From assembly GCA_017539025.1 (NCBI GenBank), contig JAFYHT010000071.1, positions 62,001 to 126,000 on the forward strand: a stretch of DNA of 64,000 bases, read 5' to 3'. The translations under genes were made by a program, and so were the position numbers. The stretch comes from Erysipelotrichaceae bacterium (GTDB lineage: Bacteria > Bacillota_I > Bacilli_A > Erysipelotrichales > Erysipelotrichaceae). Below, in pieces: positions 15,411-52,352 of this stretch (its first letter is position 1; the number at the start of each line of letters is the position of its first letter). Under the pieces are notes generated by a model. It saw only the letters and a list, made by a program, of their open reading frames with translations, was not told the origin of the DNA and did no database searches.

Positions 15411-17084
15411 ATGAAAACAAAATGGTATAAAGATGCGGTCGTCTATCAGATCTATCCCTTCAGCTTTATGGATTCCAACAATGACGGCTGGGGCGATATC
15501 GAAGGCATCATTTCAAAACTGGACTATATCAAAGATCTCGGAGTAACTGCGATCTGGTTTTCTCCGTTATACAAGTCTCCGGATTATGACTATGGATACG
15601 ACATCTCCGACTACAGAGATATCGATGAGAAATTCGGAACGATGGCCGACTTTGACAGACTCATGGAAGAATGCCACAAGAGAGGGATCAAAGTCATCAT
15701 GGACATGGTCATCAACCACAGTTCCATCGAACATCCATGGTTCAAAAAGGCCATTGAAGATCCTTCTTCCAAACACAGAGACTACTACATCATCCGTAAA
15801 GGAAAGTATAAAGGGAATAAACTCCTTCCTCCGACCAACTGGGCATCGACCTTCACCGGATCTGCCTGGGAACAGATCGGAGATACAGACGAATTCTATC
15901 TCCACCTCTTCTGCAAGGAACAGGCGGATCTCAACTGGGAAAATGAAGTGGTCAGAAAGCAGATCATCGACATCCTGAACTTCTGGCTGGATAAGGGGGT
16001 GGATGGTTTCCGCTTCGATGTCTTCAACATGTTTTCAAAAGTCTATCCTCTGAAAGATGACGATACTTCCTCTTTCCAGAAAGGATCGCCATACTTTGTG
16101 GATGGACCAAGGATGCATGAATTCCTGAAAGAACTCAACAGGAAATCCCTATCTCTCTATGATTCCTATACGGTCGGAGAATCCTATCATCCAAGTCCGG
16201 AAGCCGCAAAACAATACGTCCAGGAGTCAAACAACGAACTCGATTCGATATTCAACTTCGCCCACCTGGATGCGGACAATATCGGCGGTGCCAAGTTCTT
16301 CAAGAAACCTTTCAATATGAAACAGTTCAAGGAAGGTTTATTCAGACCGCAGGTCGATAACTACGAAGACGGATGGAACACGCTGGTTCTGGAAAACCAC
16401 GACAACCCGCGTTGCGTAAATCGTTTCTCCATCGATACAAAGCATTATCGCTATGAAGCCGCAACGATGCTTGCAAGCATCACCTACCTGGGTTTTGGTA
16501 CACCATTCATCTACATGGGACAGGAAGTAGGTCTTGCCAATACCGACTTCAGAAGTATCGACGATATGAAAGACCCGGTCTCTCACTTCGTCTATGATCT
16601 GATGACGTCCTATGGCATGCCAAAGAAACTTGCCTTCTCTTTCATCAGATATGGCGCAAGAGACCATGCCAGAGTTCCGATGCAATGGGACGATTCAATC
16701 AACGGCGGTTTCAACAAGGGACATGAACCATGGCAATGTCTCAATCCTGACTACAAGACGATCAATGTTGAAAAGGATCTCCAGTCAGACAAGTCTGTCT
16801 ATCGCTACTATCAGAAACTTCTGAAACTCAGAAAAGAAGACAAGACATTCATCTCAGGTAAAATGAACGAGATCGATCACGATCACAAGAAGATCGTTGC
16901 CTATGAAAGAGTCCTTGATGATCAAAAGTATCTGATCATCGCCAACTTCTCAAAGAAAAAAGTCTCTTACAGACTTCCTGAAGGATATAAGAATGGCGAG
17001 ATCGTATTAAGCAACTACGATCGGAATCAGGCTGATCTCAATATTCAATTTGAACCATACGAAGCGATCGTAATCAGAGTGTAA
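15411..17084 (+). CDS. GH13 alpha-glucosidase (oligo-1,6-glucosidase type)
   Basis: 557 residues, a typical length for oligo-1,6-glucosidase, trehalose-6-phosphate hydrolase and related GH13 subfamilies. It opens with WYKDAVVYQIYPFSF. The (beta/alpha)8 catalytic residues are Asp203 in GFRFDVFNM (nucleophile), Glu257 in TVGESY (acid/base) and Asp331 in ENHDNPR (transition-state stabiliser). Region I is DMVINHSS. The C-terminal beta domain ends in YEAIVIRV. There is no signal peptide, so it acts on oligosaccharides already imported. The residue after the region II triad is Val (FDVF), which in this group tends to favour alpha-1,6 or alpha-1,2 rather than alpha-1,4 links; this is only a hint. 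It closes the operon at a strong terminator. Confidence 0.92.
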   Translation: MKTKWYKDAVVYQIYPFSFMDSNNDGWGDIEGIISKLDYIKDLGVTAIWFSPLYKSPDYDYGYDISDYRDIDEKFGTMADFDRLMEECHKRGIKVIMDMVINHSSIEHPWFKKAIEDPSSKHRDYYIIRKGKYKGNKLLPPTNWASTFTGSAWEQIGDTDEFYLHLFCKEQADLNWENEVVRKQIIDILNFWLDKGVDGFRFDVFNMFSKVYPLKDDDTSSFQKGSPYFVDGPRMHEFLKELNRKSLSLYDSYTVGESYHPSPEAAKQYVQESNNELDSIFNFAHLDADNIGGAKFFKKPFNMKQFKEGLFRPQVDNYEDGWNTLVLENHDNPRCVNRFSIDTKHYRYEAATMLASITYLGFGTPFIYMGQEVGLANTDFRSIDDMKDPVSHFVYDLMTSYGMPKKLAFSFIRYGARDHARVPMQWDDSINGGFNKGHEPWQCLNPDYKTINVEKDLQSDKSVYRYYQKLLKLRKEDKTFISGKMNEIDHDHKKIVAYERVLDDQKYLIIANFSKKKVSYRLPEGYKNGEIVLSNYDRNQADLNIQFEPYEAIVIRV

Positions 17085-17112
17085 AAGAAGTTCATTGCTG
17101 AACTTCTTTTTT
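17084..17112. terminator. Bidirectional terminator after the alpha-glucosidase and ruvX genes
   Basis: AAAGAAGTTCA (17084-17094) pairs perfectly with TGAACTTCTTT (17099-17109) around TTGC, with T-runs on both strands. It overlaps the stop codons of both convergent genes. Confidence 0.9.
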
Positions 17113-17520
17113 ATTCTTATCCAGATAATACTGCAGGATCCTGACGGCTGCCTGCTGGTCAATGACCTTTTTTCTTTTCTTTCTTGAAACGTTCGCATGG
17201 ATCAGGAATTCCTCGGAATCCTTTGTCGTATTTCTTTCATCCTGCAAGACGACCCTGATCCCCGATTCCTGTTCCAGGATCTCTGCGACTTCCCTTGATA
17301 AAGCAGCTCTAGGGCCTTCATCATCATTCTCCAGTAAAGGATACCCCATGACGACCAGATCAGGGTTTTCTTCCTTGAACAGTTCCAATATGCGATTGAT
17401 CGCGTCATCATAGTCATCTCTTCTGAATCGGATCGTTTTGACCGGCTGTGCCAAAAGGCCGGTGTCCGATCTTGAAACACCGCAAGTCACACTTCCCAGA
17501 TCCAGTCCGATATACTTCAT
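17092..17520 (-). CDS. ruvX: Putative pre-16S rRNA nuclease / Holliday junction resolvase RuvX (YqgF)
   Basis: 142 residues, standard for YqgF/RuvX. It has the RNase H-like fold with the first catalytic Asp in MKYIGLDLGSVTCGVS, the strand LVVMGYPL, the motif LQDERNTT and the C-terminal DQQAAVRILQYYLD. The usual family motif is DERLTT, so the change to DERNTT is minor. Relatives trim the 5' end of 16S rRNA precursor. It is the last gene of the minus-strand run behind the STAS-HAD gene, 17 bases away; the functional link is unclear. Confidence 0.92.
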   Translation of the reverse strand: MKYIGLDLGSVTCGVSRSDTGLLAQPVKTIRFRRDDYDDAINRILELFKEENPDLVVMGYPLLENDDEGPRAALSREVAEILEQESGIRVVLQDERNTTKDSEEFLIHANVSRKKRKKVIDQQAAVRILQYYLDKNKKEVQQ

Positions 17521-17537: not shown

Positions 17538-18629
17538 TTAATCGATCAATCCGAAATGGATCAGTGCTTTTTCAATGCCGTCATTATCGATGTGATCCGT
17601 CACATAATCCGCATTCTGTTTCAGGATATCGCGGGCATTACCCAAGGCAACTCCTGTTCCCGCAAACTTCAACATGGTCAGATCATTCTCTCCGTCACCA
17701 AAGGCCATGGTTTGCGATCTTGAAATGTTTTCCTTATCCAGGAATTTCTGAATACCGGCAGCCTTGCCTCCGGTCTTGGCAATGATATCGATACCCGTAT
17801 CGTTCCAGCTCGTGATGCTGCAATGGTCCAGCATCTTTTCCAGTTTCATCCTGGTTTCACTGTCGACAAAAGCCAGACACTGATAGATCTTTTCGTCCTT
17901 GTATTCACCGATGTCAGGGATCGTTCCATGGGTCGATTCCTGGGTCTTGATGACGACATCATCGACATAGTTGATATATCTGCTTTCTTCACCGATCAGC
18001 ACGAACGGGATCCTTCCCGCTTCGAAGATGGAGACCAGGACTTCCACTTCTCCCGGATCGATCTCATTACCCGCAAACATCTTTTCGTCCTTGTCCAGAC
18101 AGATATTTCCATTAAGTGTCAGATAGCCGTCGAAATCAATTCCATCAAGAGGAAGCTTCTTCATCTCGACGATATCTCTGCCGGTCGCCACGACGACTTT
18201 GATGCCTTTTTCCTGAAGCTTCTTGATTGACCTTATCGTAGACTCGGGAACTGATCCTGTCGTATGCGAAAGTAATGTTCCGTCGATGTCAAAGAAGATG
18301 ACTTTGATGTTGAGATCCTTCTTGTCGTCGTTGTTTTCGATATGGAAGATATCCGTGAAACCGGTCATGTCAAAGACTTCCATGATCTCCCTATTGGCGT
18401 TGATGATCGAGAAGGCGCCGCGGCTTCCCATTTCCTTTTTGACTGTGAGGAAAGCTCTCAGCCCTGAAGAAGAAATGTATTCACACTCTCTTAGGTCGAT
18501 GATGAGGTTGTCGTTTTCATTCAAAGCTGCCAGCAGTTCTTCCCCGAACTCGTTTGCGCTTAGCGCATCGATCCTTCCATACGGAGTCAGTGTCAGCAGT
18601 TCACCTGTTTTCTGTTTGTCGATCTTCAT
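17538..18629 (-). CDS. STAS domain fused to Cof-type HAD phosphatase
   Basis: 363 residues from the ATG at 18629, chosen because TAGGAGA precedes it and it clears the upstream gene. Residues 1-100 are a STAS (anti-anti-sigma) domain with the phospho-acceptor Ser54 in YISSSGLR and the closing motif EVFDMTGFTDIF. Residues from about 108 form a complete Cof-type HAD hydrolase: VIFFDIDGTLL (catalytic Asp pair), VVVATGRD, a C2 cap and the final GDGENDLTML. The enzyme half should dephosphorylate a sugar phosphate or similar small phosphomonoester. The STAS half aligns position by position with the two other STAS proteins of this cluster. A STAS switch joined to a soluble phosphatase is unusual, and its phosphorylation may control the enzyme. 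Confidence 0.9.
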   Translation of the reverse strand: MKIDKQKTGELLTLTPYGRIDALSANEFGEELLAALNENDNLIIDLRECEYISSSGLRAFLTVKKEMGSRGAFSIINANREIMEVFDMTGFTDIFHIENNDDKKDLNIKVIFFDIDGTLLSHTTGSVPESTIRSIKKLQEKGIKVVVATGRDIVEMKKLPLDGIDFDGYLTLNGNICLDKDEKMFAGNEIDPGEVEVLVSIFEAGRIPFVLIGEESRYINYVDDVVIKTQESTHGTIPDIGEYKDEKIYQCLAFVDSETRMKLEKMLDHCSITSWNDTGIDIIAKTGGKAAGIQKFLDKENISRSQTMAFGDGENDLTMLKFAGTGVALGNARDILKQNADYVTDHIDNDGIEKALIHFGLID

Positions 18630-18639
18630 ATCTTTTCTC

Positions 18640-19431
18640 CTACCAGTCATTGCGAAGCAGATTGTCTCTTGTTTCCTGCGCAAACTCATATTGAGTCATG
18701 TATTCTCCCTTGAACAGCCTTCCTGCATTATCGATATCTTCCAGATAACGGTAATAGTCACAATCGATCATCTCTTTATTGATACAGATGCCGTTCTTGT
18801 TTTTGATGATAACATCTTTTACGTCTTTATTCTCCAGATCCCTGATCATCTCTGCCACGACCGTTCTTTCCAGACTTTTGAGCGAATCACTCAAAGGACG
18901 ATCTCCCCAGAGATTGCCGATGATCATATCATTGGTACAGGAAGCACCCTTTCGATCGACCAGATAGGCAAAGAGTTCCTTTGATTTGGAACGGCGGAAG
19001 TTCATCGGCTTATTGTCTACGAATACCTCAAAGGTACCGAAACACTGAACAAAGATCCTCTTTTTTTCTTCGCTTTTCCCATAACGCAGATGCGACAGAG
19101 CCTTTCTGACTTCTTCCTCTTCGATCGGCTTCAGAAGATAACCGCTCGCATAGAGATCAAAAGCCTCCGGCATGTATTCCTTGTATCCGGTCGTGAAGAT
19201 GATATTGATCCTCGGATCGATCTCCTGCAAAGCTTTGGCCAGTTCGATCCCGTTCATCTCCGGCATCTCCACATCCATAAATACGGCATCCGGTTTCTTT
19301 TCCCTGACCGCTTCGATCATCTCATCCACATGGATAAAACCCAGATGATCTCCATCCGGGTCGATCTTTTCAAGTGTCCTTAAGATGATATTGACGATGG
19401 AACGTCTGTCATCGATCGTGATGATCCTCAT
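18640..19431 (-). CDS. Response regulator with REC and SARP-type winged-helix output domain
   Basis: 263 residues. The receiver domain (1-120) has DD at 7-8, the phospho-acceptor Asp53 in FMDVEMPEMNG and the Lys in LLKPIEEEE. The output region starts at about 128 with VQCFGTFEVFVDNKP and includes RRSKSKELFAYLVDRKGA, the winged-helix seen at the start of SARP/BTAD transcription activators, followed by an alpha-helical tail. It overlaps the histidine kinase gene by four bases (ATGA), so the two are a coupled pair. LytS-like kinases normally work with LytTR regulators; the SARP-like output domain here is an uncommon partner. Confidence 0.88.
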   Translation of the reverse strand: MRIITIDDRRSIVNIILRTLEKIDPDGDHLGFIHVDEMIEAVREKKPDAVFMDVEMPEMNGIELAKALQEIDPRINIIFTTGYKEYMPEAFDLYASGYLLKPIEEEEVRKALSHLRYGKSEEKKRIFVQCFGTFEVFVDNKPMNFRRSKSKELFAYLVDRKGASCTNDMIIGNLWGDRPLSDSLKSLERTVVAEMIRDLENKDVKDVIIKNKNGICINKEMIDCDYYRYLEDIDNAGRLFKGEYMTQYEFAQETRDNLLRNDW

Positions 19432-20747
19432 CCGTTTCTGACCTCCATAACCTCATCTATCGGCATGCGGATGATCGCGTTGGTTTCTTCTTCTTCGACA
19501 TTGAGCTCAAATGTTCCGTTGCAGTAATACTTCAGTCTGTCGGAGATATTCTCAATCGCGATACCTCTGTGTTTCTTCTGACCTTCGGTAGTTGAACGCC
19601 TTCCTTCCTTATTGTTCCAGACACGGATGACGATATCGTTTCCTTCAAGATATGTATAAATGACGACCTTCCCTCTTATGTTGCGGCAGGTCAGTGCGCC
19701 ATAGTTGACCGCATTCTCCACTACCGGCTGTATCGTCAGTGTCGGGATGGAGAAGTCGGTGACCTTGAGATCATATTCCACATCAAAATCTCTGTCGGGA
19801 TCCGTCTTTTCAACTTTGATGTATTCCTTGATGAAATCCAGTTCTCTTTCAAAAGACACCATCTTTTTGGCAGTGAGATCTTCGATATTGTGACGCAGAT
19901 AGGAAGCGAAATGGCCGATACTGTCAGCCGCTTCTTCCGGCTTTGAATAACAAAGATCCTGGATGGACATCAATGAATTGAATATGAAGTGCGGTGAGAT
20001 CTGACCCAGCAGCAAAGCTGATCTGATCTCGGCATTTTCCATCTGTGATGAGAAGTAGCGTTCCGTCTGATCAACAACGATCAGCACGAACATCGCAATG
20101 CCCGCAAAGGAAGTTGCCATGACGATGAAGTAAACGCCATAGATCAGTATCTGCAGGATGATGGCGATGATCGGAAGGACCAGGAAGACCCAGAAAGCGA
20201 CCTTCTGTTTCATCGACAACATATCTTTTCTCTTCAGCAACACCACCGCATCGATGATCAGAATGATCCCCGGAAAAAGATAAGACAAAGGATATAAAGG
20301 ACTTCTGACATAAACGTTGAGTTCGTTGATGCGATAGAAAAGTCCCGTAAACTGCGATATCACAAGCAGGATCGTATGTAAGATGATCAGGATGGTCGTT
20401 GTTATGACCAGCCTGTTTTTCAGGTCTGGATCATCGATACTCAGATCGATGAGATATCTGGAAGCGACATAGGATAATATCGCAGAGAAAAAGAACTCTC
20501 CGAAATTCGCCAGATATAAGGCCATCCGATATCCCGCGCCGATCTTTCCCCTCAATACGATGCCCCAGAGATTGCAGAAGACATACAGCAACAACATGAA
20601 AAAGATCACGATAAAATAACGCTTCACATAGTTATTGATACGGGAAGCGATGATCGAAGTCATGATCCCGACGATCGAAACGGCGATACCGAAAAAACCG
20701 ATCGCAATATTGAAGACGTAATAATTGTTGATCACATAGTCTTTCAT
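19428..20747 (-). CDS. LytS/YehU-type membrane sensor histidine kinase
   Basis: 439 residues from the ATG at 20747. About seven membrane helices fill residues 10-230 (for example IAIGFFGIAVSIVGIMTSII and WVFLVLPIIAIILQILIYGVYF). The phospho-His motif SPHFIFNSL follows (His253), and then a HATPase domain with an N-box in QPVVENAVNYGAL and a short G-box near HRGIAIENISDRL. The extended frame upstream begins with a TTG inside the preceding terminator and is unlikely to be used. No ribosome site is visible, but TATAAT lies seven bases before the ATG, so the gene is probably leaderless. It overlaps its response regulator gene. Confidence 0.9.
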   Translation of the reverse strand: MKDYVINNYYVFNIAIGFFGIAVSIVGIMTSIIASRINNYVKRYFIVIFFMLLLYVFCNLWGIVLRGKIGAGYRMALYLANFGEFFFSAILSYVASRYLIDLSIDDPDLKNRLVITTTILIILHTILLVISQFTGLFYRINELNVYVRSPLYPLSYLFPGIILIIDAVVLLKRKDMLSMKQKVAFWVFLVLPIIAIILQILIYGVYFIVMATSFAGIAMFVLIVVDQTERYFSSQMENAEIRSALLLGQISPHFIFNSLMSIQDLCYSKPEEAADSIGHFASYLRHNIEDLTAKKMVSFERELDFIKEYIKVEKTDPDRDFDVEYDLKVTDFSIPTLTIQPVVENAVNYGALTCRNIRGKVVIYTYLEGNDIVIRVWNNKEGRRSTTEGQKKHRGIAIENISDRLKYYCNGTFELNVEEEETNAIIRMPIDEVMEVRNG

Positions 20748-20754
20748 TACTTTT

Positions 20755-20760
20755 ATTATA
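20755..20760 (-). promoter_or_regulatory. -10 box of probable leaderless promoter for the histidine kinase operon
   Basis: TATAAT on the minus strand, seven bases before the ATG at 20747, directly after the terminator of the STAS-kinase gene. It gives the kinase, regulator, STAS-HAD and ruvX genes their own start. Confidence 0.6.
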
Positions 20761-20775
20761 AAATGAAAAACAATG

Positions 20776-20815
20776 TACTGAAAAAACAAAAGGACTGTTT
20801 TTCACAGTCCCTTGT
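20776..20815 (-). terminator. Terminator of the STAS/PP2C operon
   Basis: On the minus strand GGACTG pairs with CAGTCC around TGAAAAA, followed by TTTTGTTTTTT. It ends the unit that starts with the stand-alone STAS gene. Confidence 0.85.
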
Positions 20816-20833
20816 ATATGTTGTTTCTAAGAG

Positions 20834-21994
20834 TTAGTACAGCAGTGTATCGACTTTATCGATCAGTTCAATGAGCTGTTTCTTGTAGTGATCGATCAGC
20901 TCAACGTTATCGGATTCACGCTTGATCGTACGGCGTAAGCCTCTGGTGTATCCGATGACCCTTGCCTTATCCATAACGGAATCGATGAAATCCTTGTCTT
21001 TTCCATCGAAATAGAATTCCATCAGCTTCTCTAAGATGTATCCTGCCAGATCCCACTCGATCTCCAGGAACTTTTCTACCTTGTCGTGATCGAGTTCACC
21101 ATATCCTCTGTAGGCCATGAAGACCGACGCAAACTCGATGATCGGATATCCTTCCGATAAGGTATCCATATCGATCAGGATCGCTTCGTTGTCCGCATAA
21201 TGGACGTTGTTGGTGTGGTAATCGCCATGTAAGACGAAGTGGTGTTCCGGAATTCCTTCCGTCAAAGCTACAAGCTTTCTGAAGCTTTCTTCAGGAAGAT
21301 GCGATTCCAGCCACTTTGCCCAGCCGATAACGGTAGCCCTCGCGTTTGGAAGGACACCTTCCTTGACCGGTGTCGCATGGATCTCCTTCAGCATATCCGC
21401 AAAGATCCTGATGTATTTGTCTTTGTCATCCGGATTATCCTTCACAAGTCTTGTGATGGATTTGGCACTCAACAGTTCAAAGATCGAACCGTATTTATCT
21501 CCTACCTTAACTACATCAAACGGGATCGCGGTATTGATGCCCATGACCAGAGCCGTCCTTGCGAGCTCTCTTTCTCTCTTGATGTCATCCAATGCATCGG
21601 AGTTCTTATAGACCTTGACGATCGTGTCTGGATTGATACGGTATACGATACCGTTTGATCCTTCACCGATCTTTTCGCAGCCCTCTACAGAAACATGGCG
21701 ATAGCCTTTTTCGATATCCATCATCTCTGAAAAGCCCGTCATCGAGAAGACTTCATAGACTTCCGAGGAACAGTTGATGATCTTCAGATCTTTGACCTTT
21801 TTCTTCATCTTCAGGATCTGTCTCAAACCTGCACTGGAGATATAGACGAGGTCTTCGGCATCGATCACCAGCTTGGCATCAGGATACTGGTCTTTCAGTT
21901 CCTGCATTTGCGCACCGATCTGGTCGGAATTGTTGGTATCGAAATTTCCTTCGAGATAGATCGTCAGGATATTGTCTTCACATGTATGTCTCAT
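20834..21994 (-). CDS. STAS domain fused to aminoglycoside-phosphotransferase-like kinase
   Basis: 386 residues. Residues 1-100 are a STAS domain with Ser54 in YISSAGLR and the end motif EVFSMTGFSEMM. From about 108 a small-molecule kinase of the APH/choline-kinase fold follows: a Gly-rich loop GEGSNGIVYR, the Lys strand IVKVYK, the Brenner motif HGDYHTNNV and the metal site LIDMDTLSEG. This matches the kinase group often found in Fibrobacter and Firmicutes genomes (TIGR02172 style). All catalytic residues appear present; the substrate is unknown. It follows the PP2C-kinase gene by 11 bases and precedes a terminator, so it is the last gene of the STAS/PP2C operon. AAGAGGAC is the ribosome site. 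Confidence 0.9.
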   Translation of the reverse strand: MRHTCEDNILTIYLEGNFDTNNSDQIGAQMQELKDQYPDAKLVIDAEDLVYISSAGLRQILKMKKKVKDLKIINCSSEVYEVFSMTGFSEMMDIEKGYRHVSVEGCEKIGEGSNGIVYRINPDTIVKVYKNSDALDDIKRERELARTALVMGINTAIPFDVVKVGDKYGSIFELLSAKSITRLVKDNPDDKDKYIRIFADMLKEIHATPVKEGVLPNARATVIGWAKWLESHLPEESFRKLVALTEGIPEHHFVLHGDYHTNNVHYADNEAILIDMDTLSEGYPIIEFASVFMAYRGYGELDHDKVEKFLEIEWDLAGYILEKLMEFYFDGKDKDFIDSVMDKARVIGYTRGLRRTIKRESDNVELIDHYKKQLIELIDKVDTLLY

Positions 21995-22005
21995 ATTTTG
22001 TCCTC

Positions 22006-23889
22006 TTACGCATTGCGTATCTTCTTCTTCATCGTCAGGATATTCATGTCTCCTCTTCTTTCATAGGAGCAGGAGTCAGTTGATTTCTTGACCATATAGA
22101 TGCCTAAGCCGCCGATATTCCTTTCTTCAGCACCGGCGTTGATATCGGGATCTTCCTGTGCCAGCGGATCAAAAGCCATGCCTGTATCTTTCAGCACGAC
22201 AGTTGCCTCATCGCCATCAAAAGACAGGCTGATCCATGCCTTTCCGTTTTCTTTTCCTTCATAGGCATAATGTGCGACATTCACAAACGCCTCTTCCAGA
22301 GCCAATGTCAGAGCCATCGTCTCTTTCATTCCGGCATCGTGCTTCTCCAGCTCTTCTTCCAGAAAAGCCAGCACATCATGAAGCCTGCGGTCATCCGCTT
22401 CAAATTCTCTTTCCATGGCACCTCCATGTTTATAATCGAATGCCAGCAGCGTCAGGTCATCTGACTGCTGGGCACCGTCAACAAACTTATCGATATCCGC
22501 TCTCACTGCGTGCAGGACCTCATCGATCGGTCTGCCCGATAGTTCCTTCAGACATTCGATCAGTCTGTTTTCTCCATATAGTTCATCGTTTCTGTTGAAC
22601 GCTTCCGTAGCGCCATCTGTATATAAGAAGATACGATCTCCTTCGTGAAGTCTGATCTTTTCATCCTTGTAGACATAATCCTCAATTCCGGCCAGAACGA
22701 ATCCCGCCTTGCATAACAGAGGCTGAATGACTCCATCCAGCTTCACGATCGGCGGATTGTGTCCGGCATTGACATAAGTCAGTTCGCCGCTTACGACATC
22801 CAGGATGCCCATCCACGCCGTGACGAAGTAACCGATCTCGTTTCCTTCACACAGCTTGTTGTTGACTTGCGTAAAGACTTCTGCAGGACTTAATCCCAGC
22901 TGGGCATGGTCCTTGATCAGGGTCTTGGCGATCACCATGAATAACGCTGCCGGAGTTCCCTTTCCCGAAACATCCGCAATGACCATCGCCAGATGATCGT
23001 GATCCACCATGAAATAATCATAGAAGTCGCCGCCAACTTCTTTGGCAGGGGTCATTTGCGCATAGATATCAAATTCATCTCTGTCCGGGAAAGCCGGGAA
23101 GATGTTTGGAAGCATGTTCAGCTGGATATCGCTTGCGATATTCAACTCCGTTCTGATCCTTTCACTCTTTGCGGTCTCATCCTGCTGGGCAAAGATCGCC
23201 AGTCTTCCCCTTCTTGCGATCTCGGCACACACCGATGCGATCATACAAAAGAGAATAAACTTCGGCATGTAGACATGTTGCAGAGTCCTGGTCCACTGAT
23301 TGGCATAATCGATGGTCGCCTGGGACATGACGACATCTCTGAGACTTGTCATCTCATCAAATCTCAATACCGTACCCAAAGGCAGTTCCAGGATATTCAG
23401 ATTCAGTCTGCCCATCTGATACATGACGCCGAAGTAATCTGCTACCCCTGACAGCAAAGCTGTAAAGACCGCCGTAAAAGAAGTAACGGGACGGGAATAG
23501 TAACGGATCGAAAGCACGACCGGAAAAACGATAAGCAGCACGACATTGTGCATCAGCACCGATTCCAGTCTTGCCAGTACGATCGTAAATTCCACCAGCA
23601 TCGCGATCTTCAGCCATTTCTTCCTGCCCTTGAGTTTCAGACAGATCAGTGCCGGGATCACCAGCTCCAGAAAGACATAGATCAGTAAGGGATTGGCTCT
23701 TTCTTTGTTCAGATTTAAGACATTTAAATTGATCAGCAACAGAAAGATCAGATCCACGACCGCCGTCTGCAAGAGCACATTGGCTACGTAGATATTTGCC
23801 TTGACCTCGTTTTCCCAGAGCGTATCGGTCGTTCTGATGAACTCTTCTTCGATCCTTTTCAGGATCCCTTCCTTCGCTCTTTGTACCAT
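22006..23889 (-). CDS. Membrane PP2C (RsbU/SpoIIE) phosphatase fused to RsbW-like kinase domain
   Basis: 627 residues. About six membrane helices occupy residues 40-250. A short linker (TELNIASDIQLNMLPNIFPAF) leads into a PP2C domain with the metal motifs VGGDFYDYF, VIADVSGKG, NAGHNPP, IFLYTDGATEA and QSDDLTLL. The last 130 residues are a GHKL kinase of the RsbW/SpoIIAB group: LALEEAFVNVAHYAY (N-box), KDTGMAFDP and IGGLGIYMVKK. One chain therefore holds both the phosphatase and the kinase activities that set the phosphorylation of STAS proteins. The stand-alone STAS gene ends four bases upstream, and the STAS-APH gene follows 11 bases downstream. I prefer the ATG at 23889 to an in-frame TTG twelve bases upstream. 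Confidence 0.92.
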   Translation of the reverse strand: MVQRAKEGILKRIEEEFIRTTDTLWENEVKANIYVANVLLQTAVVDLIFLLLINLNVLNLNKERANPLLIYVFLELVIPALICLKLKGRKKWLKIAMLVEFTIVLARLESVLMHNVVLLIVFPVVLSIRYYSRPVTSFTAVFTALLSGVADYFGVMYQMGRLNLNILELPLGTVLRFDEMTSLRDVVMSQATIDYANQWTRTLQHVYMPKFILFCMIASVCAEIARRGRLAIFAQQDETAKSERIRTELNIASDIQLNMLPNIFPAFPDRDEFDIYAQMTPAKEVGGDFYDYFMVDHDHLAMVIADVSGKGTPAALFMVIAKTLIKDHAQLGLSPAEVFTQVNNKLCEGNEIGYFVTAWMGILDVVSGELTYVNAGHNPPIVKLDGVIQPLLCKAGFVLAGIEDYVYKDEKIRLHEGDRIFLYTDGATEAFNRNDELYGENRLIECLKELSGRPIDEVLHAVRADIDKFVDGAQQSDDLTLLAFDYKHGGAMEREFEADDRRLHDVLAFLEEELEKHDAGMKETMALTLALEEAFVNVAHYAYEGKENGKAWISLSFDGDEATVVLKDTGMAFDPLAQEDPDINAGAEERNIGGLGIYMVKKSTDSCSYERRGDMNILTMKKKIRNA

Positions 23890-23893
23890 AAGA

Positions 23894-24190
23894 CTATTCA
23901 ATAGTTAAGATCTGAGTGAAACCTGTCATATCAAGGACTTCCATGATCTCGTCGTTGACATTGCGAAGGATCATCTTGCCCTTGTCTGCCATCTGCTTCT
24001 GCGCATTCAGGAAAACACGCAGTCCGGCAGAAGAGACGTAGTCCAGTTCTTTCAGATCGAGGATCAGTTCTTCCGCATCTGCCGGAACCTCGTTGAGTGC
24101 TTCTTCCAGCTGAGGAGAAGTGATCGTATCAAGCCTTCCGGAAAGCTCGATCTTGCAGCTTTTATCTTTAAAAGTCTTGTTGATTTCCAT
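23894..24190 (-). CDS. Stand-alone STAS protein (anti-sigma factor antagonist, RsbV/SpoIIAA type)
   Basis: 98 residues, a complete single STAS domain. The phospho-acceptor is Ser54 in YVSSAGLR, and the C-terminal EVLDMTGFTQIL is shared almost exactly with the two STAS fusion proteins of the cluster. It should be phosphorylated by the RsbW-like domain and dephosphorylated by the PP2C domain of the next gene. The ATG at 24190 is used because AGGAGG lies seven to eight bases upstream; a TTG two codons earlier is too close. It is the first gene of the operon. No sigma factor gene is adjacent, so the downstream target is not obvious. Confidence 0.92.
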   Translation of the reverse strand: MEINKTFKDKSCKIELSGRLDTITSPQLEEALNEVPADAEELILDLKELDYVSSAGLRVFLNAQKQMADKGKMILRNVNDEIMEVLDMTGFTQILTIE

Positions 24191-24268: not shown

Positions 24269-25045
24269 CTAGAGCGGCCTGAGACCGTCTTTCTTCATTT
24301 CCTCGTAACAGATCTTGTATATCAGATCCTTTACCTCTTCTGCCTTATGTGCTGCCGCATTGTAACGGATGTCATAACAGACACCCTTTGAATCGATCAC
24401 ATTGATGCCGTCATACTTGATGTCTTTCAGACGCTTTGACTCTTCCTTTGCACGGGCTACGACTCTTTCAAAACAGCTGTCGATCTTTTCCTTGTCATCA
24501 TCCATCTTGAAATAGAAAGCGATGATCCTCTTATCCTTGATCTTCTCGATCGATTTGATCATCGAGTTACATACCGTATAAGTCGAACCGGTCTTGACCG
24601 ACTGGAACTTCGTCACTCTGGCATTGAAGTATTTGACATCGCATTCTTCGTTGTTGTAACGGACCAGGTCACCGACCTTGTAGAAGTTGTTGTTGTAGAT
24701 ATTGATACCCGAGAACAGATCCTTCAATGTATCCTGCAGAGAAAGACCGACGATAGTGGCCATGATACCTAAACCTGCGAGGATCCTGGTGATATCCACA
24801 CCATGCAGCTGCAGGACCATGATGATCGCCACAATGACGACGAAATACTGCAAGATAGAGAATACAACACCGATGAATGTGTTCTTGTGCTGGGTATTCT
24901 TTGATGTATAAGCTACCTTCTTGATCAGATAATTCTTGATCAGATACAGCAACATCACAGTTACCGCAGCGATCAGGATGCTGTAGAGAAATGCTTCCGA
25001 AATGAAATACTTTAATATCTTATTCATGCCGCCGGCTTGGTTCAT
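24269..25045 (-). CDS. Small-conductance mechanosensitive channel (MscS) family protein
   Basis: 258 residues with three hydrophobic segments (about 10-30, 55-80 and 88-110). The pore-lining segment is DITRILAGLGIMATIVGLSLQDTLKDLFSGI, quoted here in outline only by its ends DITRI and LFSGI. A beta domain starting at YKVGDLVRYN follows, and an alpha/beta tail. This is the standard MscS core that opens under membrane tension to release solutes. AAGGAGG precedes the ATG. It lies between the STAS operon and a metallophosphoesterase gene on the same strand. Confidence 0.9.
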   Translation of the reverse strand: MNQAGGMNKILKYFISEAFLYSILIAAVTVMLLYLIKNYLIKKVAYTSKNTQHKNTFIGVVFSILQYFVVIVAIIMVLQLHGVDITRILAGLGIMATIVGLSLQDTLKDLFSGINIYNNNFYKVGDLVRYNNEECDVKYFNARVTKFQSVKTGSTYTVCNSMIKSIEKIKDKRIIAFYFKMDDDKEKIDSCFERVVARAKEESKRLKDIKYDGINVIDSKGVCYDIRYNAAAHKAEEVKDLIYKICYEEMKKDGLRPL

Positions 25046-49129: not shown

Positions 49130-52100
49130 TTATTCTTTTCCCTTGTATTCCAGACACATCATCGTCAGATCATCGAACTGTTCCGCTTCCTTGACGAAAC
49201 CATCGACTGCCTTTCTGACGTTGATCGTCAGCTGTTCAGGCCCGGCATCCGGATCTTCGTTCAGTGCCTTCAGAAGATTCTCCATGCCAAAGAGCCTTTC
49301 CTTGCTGTCGGTAGCTTCAGGGATGCCATCGGTATACAAGAAGATCTTTGAACCGGGTTCCAGATCCATTTCGTACTCGTGGTAGACGAAGTTGTCCAGT
49401 CCGCCGATGACGAAGTCGTGTTTGTCTTTGAAGATCTCAAATCCGCCTTGTGGCTTCCTGATGATCGGATATTCATGTCCGGCATTGGCAGCCTTCAGCT
49501 TTCCTGTTGAAACTTCAAGGATACCCAACCATACCGTGACAAACATCTTTGCCCTGTTGTTGGCACAGATCGCTTCGTTGGCCTTAGTCAGGATCTTGGC
49601 TGGCGAATCATAGATCATCGCCGAGTTGTTCAAGATCGCCTTTGAGACCATCATGAACAGAGCGCCCGGGATACCCTTGCCGGAAACATCCGCCATGATC
49701 AGACAGAGGTGATCGTCATCGATGAAGAAGAAATCATAGAAGTCTCCGCCAACCTCTCTTGCCGGATCCATGCTGGCAAAGAGTTCAAATTCTGTCCTGT
49801 CAGGGAACGGCGGGAAGACATGAGGCAGAGTACTTTGCTGGATATCGTTACCCATCTTCATCTCATTGGCGATCTGCTGTTTTTCACTTTCTTCCTTGTG
49901 CTTTCTTTCCAGTTTCTTTTCTCTTCCGTCAATGTACAGACCGATCAGAGCGTATAAGACAAGAAGGGCAGACAGGAACGAGTAGAGATAGAACCACACC
50001 GATTCATACAAGGCCAGTTCCTTTTCGATGCGGATGACGGTACCGACAGATTCTCCTGTTAAAGACTGCTGCAGTTCCACGATAAAGTGATAGGTTCCGC
50101 CGCGCAGATTCGTATAGTAGACCGGGAAGACTTCTGCTGCCGTTCCGGTCGTGTTTTCTTCATCAAAACCATCCAGTCTGTATGAGATCAGCGGTTCAGT
50201 CAGTGAATAGGTATAGACATAGCCATAGATCGTCAGTTTCCTTGTGTTGTATGTAACGAAGAACACACCATCCTTATCCGGATAGATCTTCTTTCCGTCT
50301 GCTTCAAGATACGGGATCGCAAACTTCAGATCCTTCATCTCCTCGAACGGATCTTCGATGTTGACCTTGGCAACGCCTGTCGTACCCGCAATATAAAGAT
50401 CTCCATCATCCGTCAGCTCACTGTAGGAGTTGGCGGTCGCAATACAAGGAAGACCATCGGACATCGAATAATGAACGGTATTGATCTCTTCACCGCTTAA
50501 GATATCTTCCGCCTTGGCGATATAGATGCCGTTGCTGGAAAGGACCCAGAGTTCTCCCTTGGAATTGAAATAGATATCGAAGTTGTTGGAATATGGGAAC
50601 AAGTCTGCCTTATGCAGTTCATAATCTCTGCTCAGATAAGAAAGAGAATTGCCGGTGACGATCCAGTAGACATCATTCCTCTCATCAAACTTGATACGCA
50701 TCACGGCATCTGAACTGAGTCCGTTGTTGTGGTCGAAATGTTTCATCCCGTTTTTTGAAAGGATGAAGATGCCGGCGCCATCCGATCCAACGATGATGTC
50801 ATCGCCTTCTCCTTCCACAACGCAAAGGACATCGGTATTGGTGATCCCGTCTTTTTCGGTATATGTTGCGACGACTCTGTCGTCTTTGATGATACTGACA
50901 CCGCCGTTCCCGGCAACCAGTATCCTTCCATCGATACACTCATCGACCATTCGGATCGCATCTGAAGCCAGGCCTTCTTCTTTCCTGAATGATCTCAGAT
51001 CTCCGTGGTCGTAGCACAGAAGCCCATATTTTCTCCATGTGGAGATCCATAAACGATCCTTGGAATCGCGGATGATCGAACGGATACGGCAATTGTCCAG
51101 CAGTTCCAGAAGATCATCGGTTTTTCTTTCTTCACCATAGATCTGAATACTTTCATTCAGCTTAACCTTTTCAAGAGGACCGTTCTCATCGATCACGATC
51201 AGCCCGGTATCGGTAGCAATGAACAGATCGCCATCATACATACATGTGGAATTGACGACTCTGTCAGATAATTCATAACGTTCAAAAAGATCGGAGAACC
51301 TGTTCTTGACGATCTTCATGACACCTTCACGCGTTGATGTGAACCAGAGATTTCCCTCGTAGTCGCTCATGACGTGACCGATGGAGTTCTTCATCGGGAT
51401 GTTTTTCAGTACGTGGAATCCCTCTTCATCCAATACACCGATGCCGTTTCTTGTGGTGAACCAGATCTTTCCGCCCAGGTATTCCATGGACTGCACCTGG
51501 TCAAGTGGAGAGATATCGATCGGCGTGCTGTTTTCAAAACCGCCCTTTAGAGTATCGTGATATACTCTTCCATCCTGCGTTTCCACATAGATCTTTGAAG
51601 GATCGTGTGGATCCGGAAGGATGCAATTGATGCCGCCGAAGGAACTTTGGGAAAGACGATGATATTCATCGACCTTTCCATTTTTCAGAACCACGATATC
51701 ACCGGAATTGGTGACTCCATAGATCCTTCCGTCAACGCCCATCCTGAGTTCATGGATAAACGCATCGACCACTCTGAGATCTTCCACATAAGACATCTTG
51801 AAGTTCTGATCGATACTCAGAAGGCCTTCGGTCGTAGCCACATAGATCTTGCCGTCTTCTCCTTCCAGCATGGAACGTACTGAAACAGACTTCATGCCGT
51901 CATGCAGACCCCAATGGTATGTAGCATCGTTGTGGATCAGGACGACACCGCTGTCGTTGGTACCGACCCACAACCTGTTCAAACTGTCGACATAGAGACA
52001 CTTTACGCTTGTGATTCCCGCCGTGGAGTCCTGTCTCTCAAAACGGCTTCCATCATATCTTATGAGACCCGCATAGCTGCCGATCCAGATGAAACCCTCC

Positions 52101-52345
52101 TGCGTCTGTACGATATCGTTTGCTTCCGATGTCGGAAGACCGTTCGTATTGTTGTATAAGACGGCTGAATAGCCATCTTCTCCGCCAAGAGGATCGACAG
52201 AGACCGGTCCGTTATGTTTCCCTCCTGCTTCATAAGACGATCCATCTTCACTGTAGACGCTTCTGTATTGCAACACAAAAATAAGCATCATCACACAAAG
52301 GATGCACTTGAGGATCTTATGGAACGTCAGGTCATATTTTTTCAT
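49130..52345 (-). CDS. Large sensor protein: beta-propeller, Y_Y_Y domain, membrane helix and PP2C phosphatase
   Basis: 1071 residues from the ATG at 52345. A signal anchor (about 8-30) is followed by two stretches of two-component-regulator propeller repeats (for example NDIVQTQEGFIWIGSYAGLIRYDG and the IWFTTRNGIGVLD and LWFTSTREGVMKI repeats) up to about residue 670. A Y_Y_Y-type Ig domain (KLTIYGYVYTYSL, YRLDGFDE) and one membrane helix (VWFYLYSFLSALLVLYALIG) follow. The cytoplasmic PP2C domain has VGGDFYDFF, IMADVSGKG, NAGHEYP and FLYTDGIPEA. The outside half is the sensor seen in Bacteroides hybrid two-component systems for glycans; here the output is an RsbU-like phosphatase acting on STAS proteins. 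TATAAT lies seven bases before the ATG. Confidence 0.92.
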   Translation of the reverse strand: MKKYDLTFHKILKCILCVMMLIFVLQYRSVYSEDGSSYEAGGKHNGPVSVDPLGGEDGYSAVLYNNTNGLPTSEANDIVQTQEGFIWIGSYAGLIRYDGSRFERQDSTAGITSVKCLYVDSLNRLWVGTNDSGVVLIHNDATYHWGLHDGMKSVSVRSMLEGEDGKIYVATTEGLLSIDQNFKMSYVEDLRVVDAFIHELRMGVDGRIYGVTNSGDIVVLKNGKVDEYHRLSQSSFGGINCILPDPHDPSKIYVETQDGRVYHDTLKGGFENSTPIDISPLDQVQSMEYLGGKIWFTTRNGIGVLDEEGFHVLKNIPMKNSIGHVMSDYEGNLWFTSTREGVMKIVKNRFSDLFERYELSDRVVNSTCMYDGDLFIATDTGLIVIDENGPLEKVKLNESIQIYGEERKTDDLLELLDNCRIRSIIRDSKDRLWISTWRKYGLLCYDHGDLRSFRKEEGLASDAIRMVDECIDGRILVAGNGGVSIIKDDRVVATYTEKDGITNTDVLCVVEGEGDDIIVGSDGAGIFILSKNGMKHFDHNNGLSSDAVMRIKFDERNDVYWIVTGNSLSYLSRDYELHKADLFPYSNNFDIYFNSKGELWVLSSNGIYIAKAEDILSGEEINTVHYSMSDGLPCIATANSYSELTDDGDLYIAGTTGVAKVNIEDPFEEMKDLKFAIPYLEADGKKIYPDKDGVFFVTYNTRKLTIYGYVYTYSLTEPLISYRLDGFDEENTTGTAAEVFPVYYTNLRGGTYHFIVELQQSLTGESVGTVIRIEKELALYESVWFYLYSFLSALLVLYALIGLYIDGREKKLERKHKEESEKQQIANEMKMGNDIQQSTLPHVFPPFPDRTEFELFASMDPAREVGGDFYDFFFIDDDHLCLIMADVSGKGIPGALFMMVSKAILNNSAMIYDSPAKILTKANEAICANNRAKMFVTVWLGILEVSTGKLKAANAGHEYPIIRKPQGGFEIFKDKHDFVIGGLDNFVYHEYEMDLEPGSKIFLYTDGIPEATDSKERLFGMENLLKALNEDPDAGPEQLTINVRKAVDGFVKEAEQFDDLTMMCLEYKGKE

Positions 52346-52352
52346 CACTATT

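Follow-up and report, generated by a model that had tools for sequence, protein, structure and literature searches.

A putative partner-switching module with STAS domains built into a small-molecule kinase and a phosphatase in Erysipelotrichaceae

The window analysed here is a stretch of 64,000 nucleotides from an Erysipelotrichaceae bacterium, whose minus strand encodes, in this order, an MscS-like channel, a free STAS protein, a membrane protein joining PP2C and HATPase_c_2 domains (PP2C-RsbW), a STAS-APH fusion, a LytS-like histidine kinase, a response regulator, a STAS-HAD fusion and RuvX (Table 1). The four proteins on which a sequence-only reading of this DNA had been built, namely the three STAS proteins and the membrane protein described as an RsbU-like PP2C with an RsbW-like kinase, are all present where it placed them, with complete domains. 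That reading left out the histidine kinase and the response regulator, which separate STAS-APH from STAS-HAD.

Table 1. Features of the STAS region, in window coordinates
Feature	Coordinates	Strand	Evidence and remarks
MscS-like mechanosensitive channel	24269..25045	-	Pfam MS_channel_2nd 3.6e-8; optional part
Free STAS protein, acceptor Ser54	23894..24190	-	Pfam STAS 3.1e-16; AGGAGG precedes ATG 24190
Membrane PP2C-RsbW: N-terminal membrane region, SpoIIE-type PP2C, C-terminal RsbW-type kinase	22006..23901	-	SpoIIE 2.3e-47; HATPase_c_2 2.9e-23
STAS-APH: STAS (Ser54) and APH-fold small-molecule kinase	20834..21994	-	Pfam STAS 6.4e-12; APH 1.9e-14
Terminator-like hairpin 3' of STAS-APH	20789..20813	-	Consensus match only
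Promoter-like site after the hairpin	20784-20755		Consensus match only
LytS-like membrane histidine kinase	19428..20747	-	Pfam His_kinase 3.3e-17; ORF opens at 20789, ATG 20747 likelier start
Response regulator, SARP/winged-helix-like C-terminus (fold judged by eye)	18640..19431	-	Pfam Response_reg 2.5e-20
STAS-HAD: STAS (Ser54) and Cof-type HAD-IIB phosphatase	17538..18629	-	STAS 6e-17; Hydrolase_3 2.5e-54; GGAGAA precedes ATG 18629
RuvX, final gene of the probable second operon	17092..17520	-	Pfam RuvX 6.8e-35

The genes had been taken as a single cluster, but they probably form two operons, (MscS) STAS / PP2C-RsbW / STAS-APH and histidine kinase / response regulator / STAS-HAD / RuvX, because a terminator-like site followed by a promoter-like site lies between STAS-APH and the histidine kinase. 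In agreement with two units, the second block is found on a different contig from the PP2C-RsbW/STAS-APH block in genomes G136 and G184; in G666 it lies about 10 kb from STAS-APH. Within the genus, RuvX is conserved next to STAS-HAD, with the same order at five further loci (L072, L101, L250, L251 and L252), and is probably not part of the switch. The MscS-like channel adjoins the STAS/PP2C block at L071, L078, L079, L103, L104, L110 and others, and is found at 5 of the 80 STAS-APH loci of the wider set described below. Between RuvX and a convergent amylase-type gene there is a 12-pair inverted repeat (window 17083-17110), probably a two-way terminator.

The region contains the parts that characterise an RsbU/V/W-type module, which are a STAS domain with an acceptor serine, an HATPase_c_2 domain with N and G boxes and a SpoIIE-type PP2C, but no B/F-type σ factor as partner of the kinase. 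Judged by these parts, it appears to work like a partner switch and is not classed as an anti-σ system. With translation from ATG 24190 and ATG 18629, both preceded by good ribosome-binding sites, each of the three STAS domains has its acceptor at Ser54, as had been read from the letters. The acceptor serine is conserved in each of the 145 fused STAS domains compared (94 STAS-APH, 21 triple fusions and 30 HAD fusions) and in 98 of 101 free ones. The closing motif EV-x-x-MTGF, also pointed out earlier, does occur in all three proteins, although it was dropped as a special signature and is weak evidence of special kinship, because many members of these STAS families end in a TGF-like motif. The nearest solved structures to the free STAS protein are 4hyl and RsbV 6m36. 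In PP2C-RsbW, the kinase domain scores 82.7 bits (cut-off 27.4) and aligns to RsbW 6m36, while the phosphatase domain scores 161.9 bits (cut-off 25) and aligns to 3es2, Rv1364c 3ke6 and the SiaA-type 6k4e. Kinase motifs are intact in the short, PP2C-fused and triple-fused forms, with the N box kept in 43/43, 46/46 and 21/21 sequences, respectively; they are altered in a fusion of the kinase-like domain to a MATE transporter.

The fusion of STAS domains to enzymes is borne out in both chains. The APH domain exceeds its Pfam cut-off (54.4 against 23.2 bits) and has the APH/choline-kinase-like fold and the HGDxxxxN/ID motifs; at 104.4 bits, the protein falls below the curated cut-off of NCBIfam TIGR02172 (228.2) and is not assigned to that family. 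Ser53, Ser54 and HGDxHxxN/IDMD are invariant across 49 STAS-APH sequences. A confident structural model of the window's STAS-APH (pLDDT 93.8, pTM 0.79) overlays its STAS domain on SpoIIAA at 1.6 Å over 97 residues, with Ser54 at the N-terminal end of a helix, as in SpoIIAA. Aminoglycoside resistance is not claimed as the role of the APH domain, because the solved folds that it matches with similar Z (up to 17) comprise, among others, a protein of the choline/ethanolamine kinase family, APH(4), APH(2''), FN3K and homoserine kinase. The junction between STAS and APH is 22 residues long in 49 of 49 sequences and equals the domain cores in conservation (column identity 0.78).

STAS-HAD belongs to the Cof-type HAD-IIB phosphatases (TIGR00099, 182.6 bits against a cut-off of 137), and its nearest solved structure is BT4131 (1ymq, 8.8e-42). 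The acceptor serine and the HAD motifs DxDGT and GDxxND are invariant in 14 STAS-HAD sequences, and the linker is poorly conserved (column identity 0.41). About 30 genomes of the family encode full-length STAS-HAD, as does one Atopobiaceae MAG (L198), where a single cluster holds STAS-HAD, STAS, RsbW, HD_4 and STAS-APH; within or beside a STAS/PP2C/STAS-APH block it is also found in G122, G193, G176, G664 and G652. The order is reversed to HAD-STAS in G141 and G154, which fall outside the branch containing all STAS-HAD rows (SH-aLRT 98, in a quick tree with some long branches). Reversed fusions with the acceptor serine retained are seen at L076:4947-6035 and L106:6888-8006. In G624, G680, G661 and G682, an unfused HAD relative lies between RsbW and MATE-HATPase, and the unfused HADs of G677 and G675, which nest among STAS-HAD rows in the quick tree, look like losses of STAS. 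The occurrence of unfused relatives means that STAS is not essential to the HAD protein; with STAS at either end or absent, and the HAD inside such clusters, the HAD is a recurring part of the module.

Scanning of named genomes found at least 573 STAS-APH loci, mostly in Bacillota and some in spirochaetes and Actinomycetota, and the best 80 of these were examined for neighbours up to 6 kb away. They belong to Erysipelotrichaceae, Oscillospiraceae, Lachnospiraceae, Mogibacterium, spirochaetes and Atopobiaceae. Most are gut or rumen MAGs, but isolates such as Flavonifractor sp. An82 and Coprococcus catus (L197 and L207) also carry the module. An RsbW-type HATPase_c_2 domain lies within this distance at 67 of the 80 best loci, leaving 13 with no kinase; a free STAS is present at 58, a PP2C at 35, a PP2C-HATPase fusion at 25 and an HD_4 gene at 37. 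At 21 of the 80, the kinase domain forms the C-terminus of STAS-APH itself, a triple fusion checked against Pfam (for example L147:10308-11912), and because it joins an RsbW-type domain to STAS-APH, wiring of the kinase onto the STAS domain is strongly supported. In a model of moderate quality (pTM 0.56), the kinase domain of the triple fusion overlays RsbW and SpoIIAB at Z 16-17.6 (RsbW 17.6); the APH-HATPase linker has a column identity of 0.50 and occurs in two lengths. HATPase_c_2 was found in all 50 STAS-APH genomes checked, in 49 of them over the cut-off, including some with none nearby. Within the family, a strong match (E < 1e-14) is present in 32 of 32 fusion-bearing genomes versus 40 of 164 without a fusion (Fisher 5e-17, uncorrected for phylogeny), and in three genomes of the same genus without STAS (G060, G116 and G187) the matches are weak, as if the module had been lost as a whole. 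Fusions in genomes that lack the kinase would have counted against the circuit proposed earlier; the sole genome without an HATPase_c_2 match is that of G675, a STAS-HAD-bearing MAG with a completeness of 72%.

The circuit as first drawn gave one bifunctional enzyme control over several STAS outputs. Its tie between RsbW-type kinase and STAS-APH is upheld by these counts, but the PP2C-kinase fusion is not a universal regulator, since many relatives encode the kinase and the phosphatase in separate genes. The window's genome (2.35 Mb, estimated completeness 94.5%) has no STAS domains other than these three, and the chance of three random positions all falling inside 6.65 kb is about 2e-5. It does encode two more PP2C proteins (one of the 5TM-LYT type, one of the Reg_prop type) as well as a second, divergent RsbW-like HATPase_c_2 domain with altered G boxes, which is fused to a MATE transporter, so that PP2C-RsbW is not the sole candidate regulator, and several regulators could share the STAS domains. 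The Reg_prop protein (window 49130-52348, minus strand, 1072 residues), with Reg_prop repeats and a SpoIIE-type PP2C, is a possible further phosphatase for the STAS proteins. Fusions of MATE to HATPase_c_2 are located at G000:C65:33055-33408, L093:1942-3687 and L142:2142-3896, and in some relatives within the same cluster. Searches of six proteins against PADLOC defence models gave no match at 1e-4, a result that does not exclude such a role, and plasmid records gave partial matches of the PP2C type, none spanning 80% of the PP2C-RsbW protein.

The region is probably a partner-switching module in which enzymes in cis take the place of a σ factor as outputs: with the switch domain built into a small-molecule kinase and a phosphatase, phosphate on one serine would probably control enzymes, not genes. 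From the parts, their intact motifs, the wiring by fusion and gene order, and conservation, we infer phosphorylation, a direction of control and substrates along the following lines. The RsbW-type kinase domain would phosphorylate Ser54 of the free STAS, STAS-APH and STAS-HAD, and the SpoIIE-type PP2C of the same membrane protein, perhaps with the two others in the genome, would remove the phosphate. As in known switches, the unphosphorylated STAS domain would bind the kinase and the phosphorylated one would be released, with the free STAS competing for the kinase and setting a threshold. The two fusions are likely to differ in their coupling. In STAS-APH, where STAS continues into the N-lobe of APH, binding or phosphorylation would most likely alter APH activity directly, because the 22-residue stretch is fixed in length and highly conserved. 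In STAS-HAD, because the linker is poorly conserved, the more likely role of STAS is to tether or sequester the phosphatase at the regulator in the membrane. Points against the reading as a whole are the 13 loci with no kinase inside 6 kb, the missing HATPase_c_2 match in G675, the unfused HADs and the presence of further candidate regulators in the window's genome.

Tethering of this kind might be all that happens, with STAS as a reversible docking tag to a membrane-bound kinase (PP2C-RsbW or MATE-HATPase), phosphorylation as the release and turnover unchanged. The membrane location of the kinase in both proteins agrees with this, as do the loose STAS-HAD linker and the placement of STAS at either end of the HAD; it is nevertheless unlikely, given the rigid STAS-APH junction and the many relatives in which the kinase either is short and lacks a membrane part or is joined to APH itself. 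Less likely still is an ordinary anti-σ circuit, in which the RsbW-type domain holds an unlinked σ factor, the STAS proteins are merely antagonists and the enzymes are sensors or passengers. The homology of the kinase to RsbW/SpoIIAB and of the STAS domains to RsbV/SpoIIAA would fit, and there are four genes with σ70 region 2 in the genome, all on contigs other than that of the window, comprising RpoD and three short genes that might supply the partner. One of the short genes, however, lies among smpB/nusG-type genes and, of the other two, both ECF-sized, one is adjoined by its own anti-σ-like gene (neighbours named by eye). As had been noted earlier for the surroundings of the cluster, no σ gene was found in the window, and no σB/σF-type factor in the window or the genome; a σ-like ORF is present at just 2 of the 80 best STAS-APH loci, so that no σ factor was found as a conserved partner of the module. 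Two g31 genomes do have an ECF-type σ gene, related to the ECF-sized gene at G000:C13, some 1.2 kb away from the cluster (L242:10568-11128 and L243:1460-2020), which is a point for an anti-σ circuit, but such a circuit leaves the repeated fusion of STAS to APH and HAD unexplained. Finally, it is very improbable that the fused STAS domains escape the switch and dimerise or bind nucleotide or lipid, with the free STAS alone regulated: STAS domains do serve other purposes elsewhere, SulP transporters being one example (PMC8256260), but here every fused STAS keeps the acceptor serine and its surrounding helix (145/145), and the kinase is fused to STAS-APH at 21 of 80 loci.

The product of the HD_4 gene is similar to small alarmone hydrolases, with 7qoe and Lmo0812 4yf1 as its nearest solved structures, and has an intact HDxxED motif. 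Genes of this MESH1-like type stand beside the kinase and STAS-APH at L071:8368-8943, at L155:9406-9975 and at 37 of 80 loci (L128-L207). The window's genome has no separate copy, just a long RelA/SpoT-family match, which makes the gene an optional part. A doubtful extension of the enzyme-output reading is that STAS-APH and STAS-HAD act as opposed kinase and phosphatase on one metabolite, often with the (p)ppGpp-hydrolase-like enzyme as a third member, and with the balance set by one Ser54 switch. If true, gut anaerobes would use a phosphoprotein switch to set directly how much of a small signalling molecule they contain.

Partner switching has been described chiefly as a means of freeing σ factors, with a few cases acting in trans on enzymes or biofilm factors. 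The RsbU/RsbV/RsbW and SpoIIE/SpoIIAA/SpoIIAB systems of Bacillus subtilis have a homologous phosphatase, STAS protein with acceptor serine, and kinase, but they release σB or σF, neither of which accompanies the present module. In the SiaA/SiaB/SiaC/SiaD system of Pseudomonas aeruginosa, a PP2C and a kinase likewise govern the phosphorylation state of a small switch protein, whose output is an enzyme, not a σ factor; there, however, SiaC controls a diguanylate cyclase in trans, whereas here STAS lies within the chain of an APH-fold kinase or a HAD phosphatase (PMC8457831). BgrV and HsbA, as cited in the same paper, are further examples of STAS control of enzymes in trans. SypE of Vibrio fischeri combines serine kinase and phosphatase domains in one protein and targets a STAS protein, SypA (Ser56), which is itself the downstream output, but SypE has a receiver domain and SypA is a bare STAS with no enzyme fusion (PMC10120452). 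SiaC (PMC8457831) and SypA (PMC10120452) are both active when unphosphorylated. Rv1364c of Mycobacterium tuberculosis (3ke6) also carries PP2C and RsbW-type domains in one chain, together with an N-terminal PAS and a C-terminal anti-anti-σ domain, and has no enzyme output (PMC12143880). Anabaena all4160 is a STAS fused to an enzyme, in that case a glycosyltransferase, for which the passage that mentions it describes no PP2C/RsbW linkage (PMC8256260). The union of PP2C and RsbW in one chain is already known from Rv1364c and SypE. In the literature searched, which covered few subscription journals, no report was found of STAS-APH, STAS-HAD or STAS-APH-RsbW with PP2C, and no papers on TIGR02172, on STAS with aminoglycoside phosphotransferase or on STAS with SpoIIE/HATPase/HAD; wider searching yielded just the precedents named above.

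Switch domains built into enzymes are common across gut anaerobes, and roughly one in four of the loci studied also has the kinase joined to the enzyme. If the enzyme-output reading is true, a partner switch free of σ factors could be tested with a single purified protein. A likely role would also be gained by hundreds of genes that are probably annotated automatically as anti-σ factor antagonist or aminoglycoside phosphotransferase.
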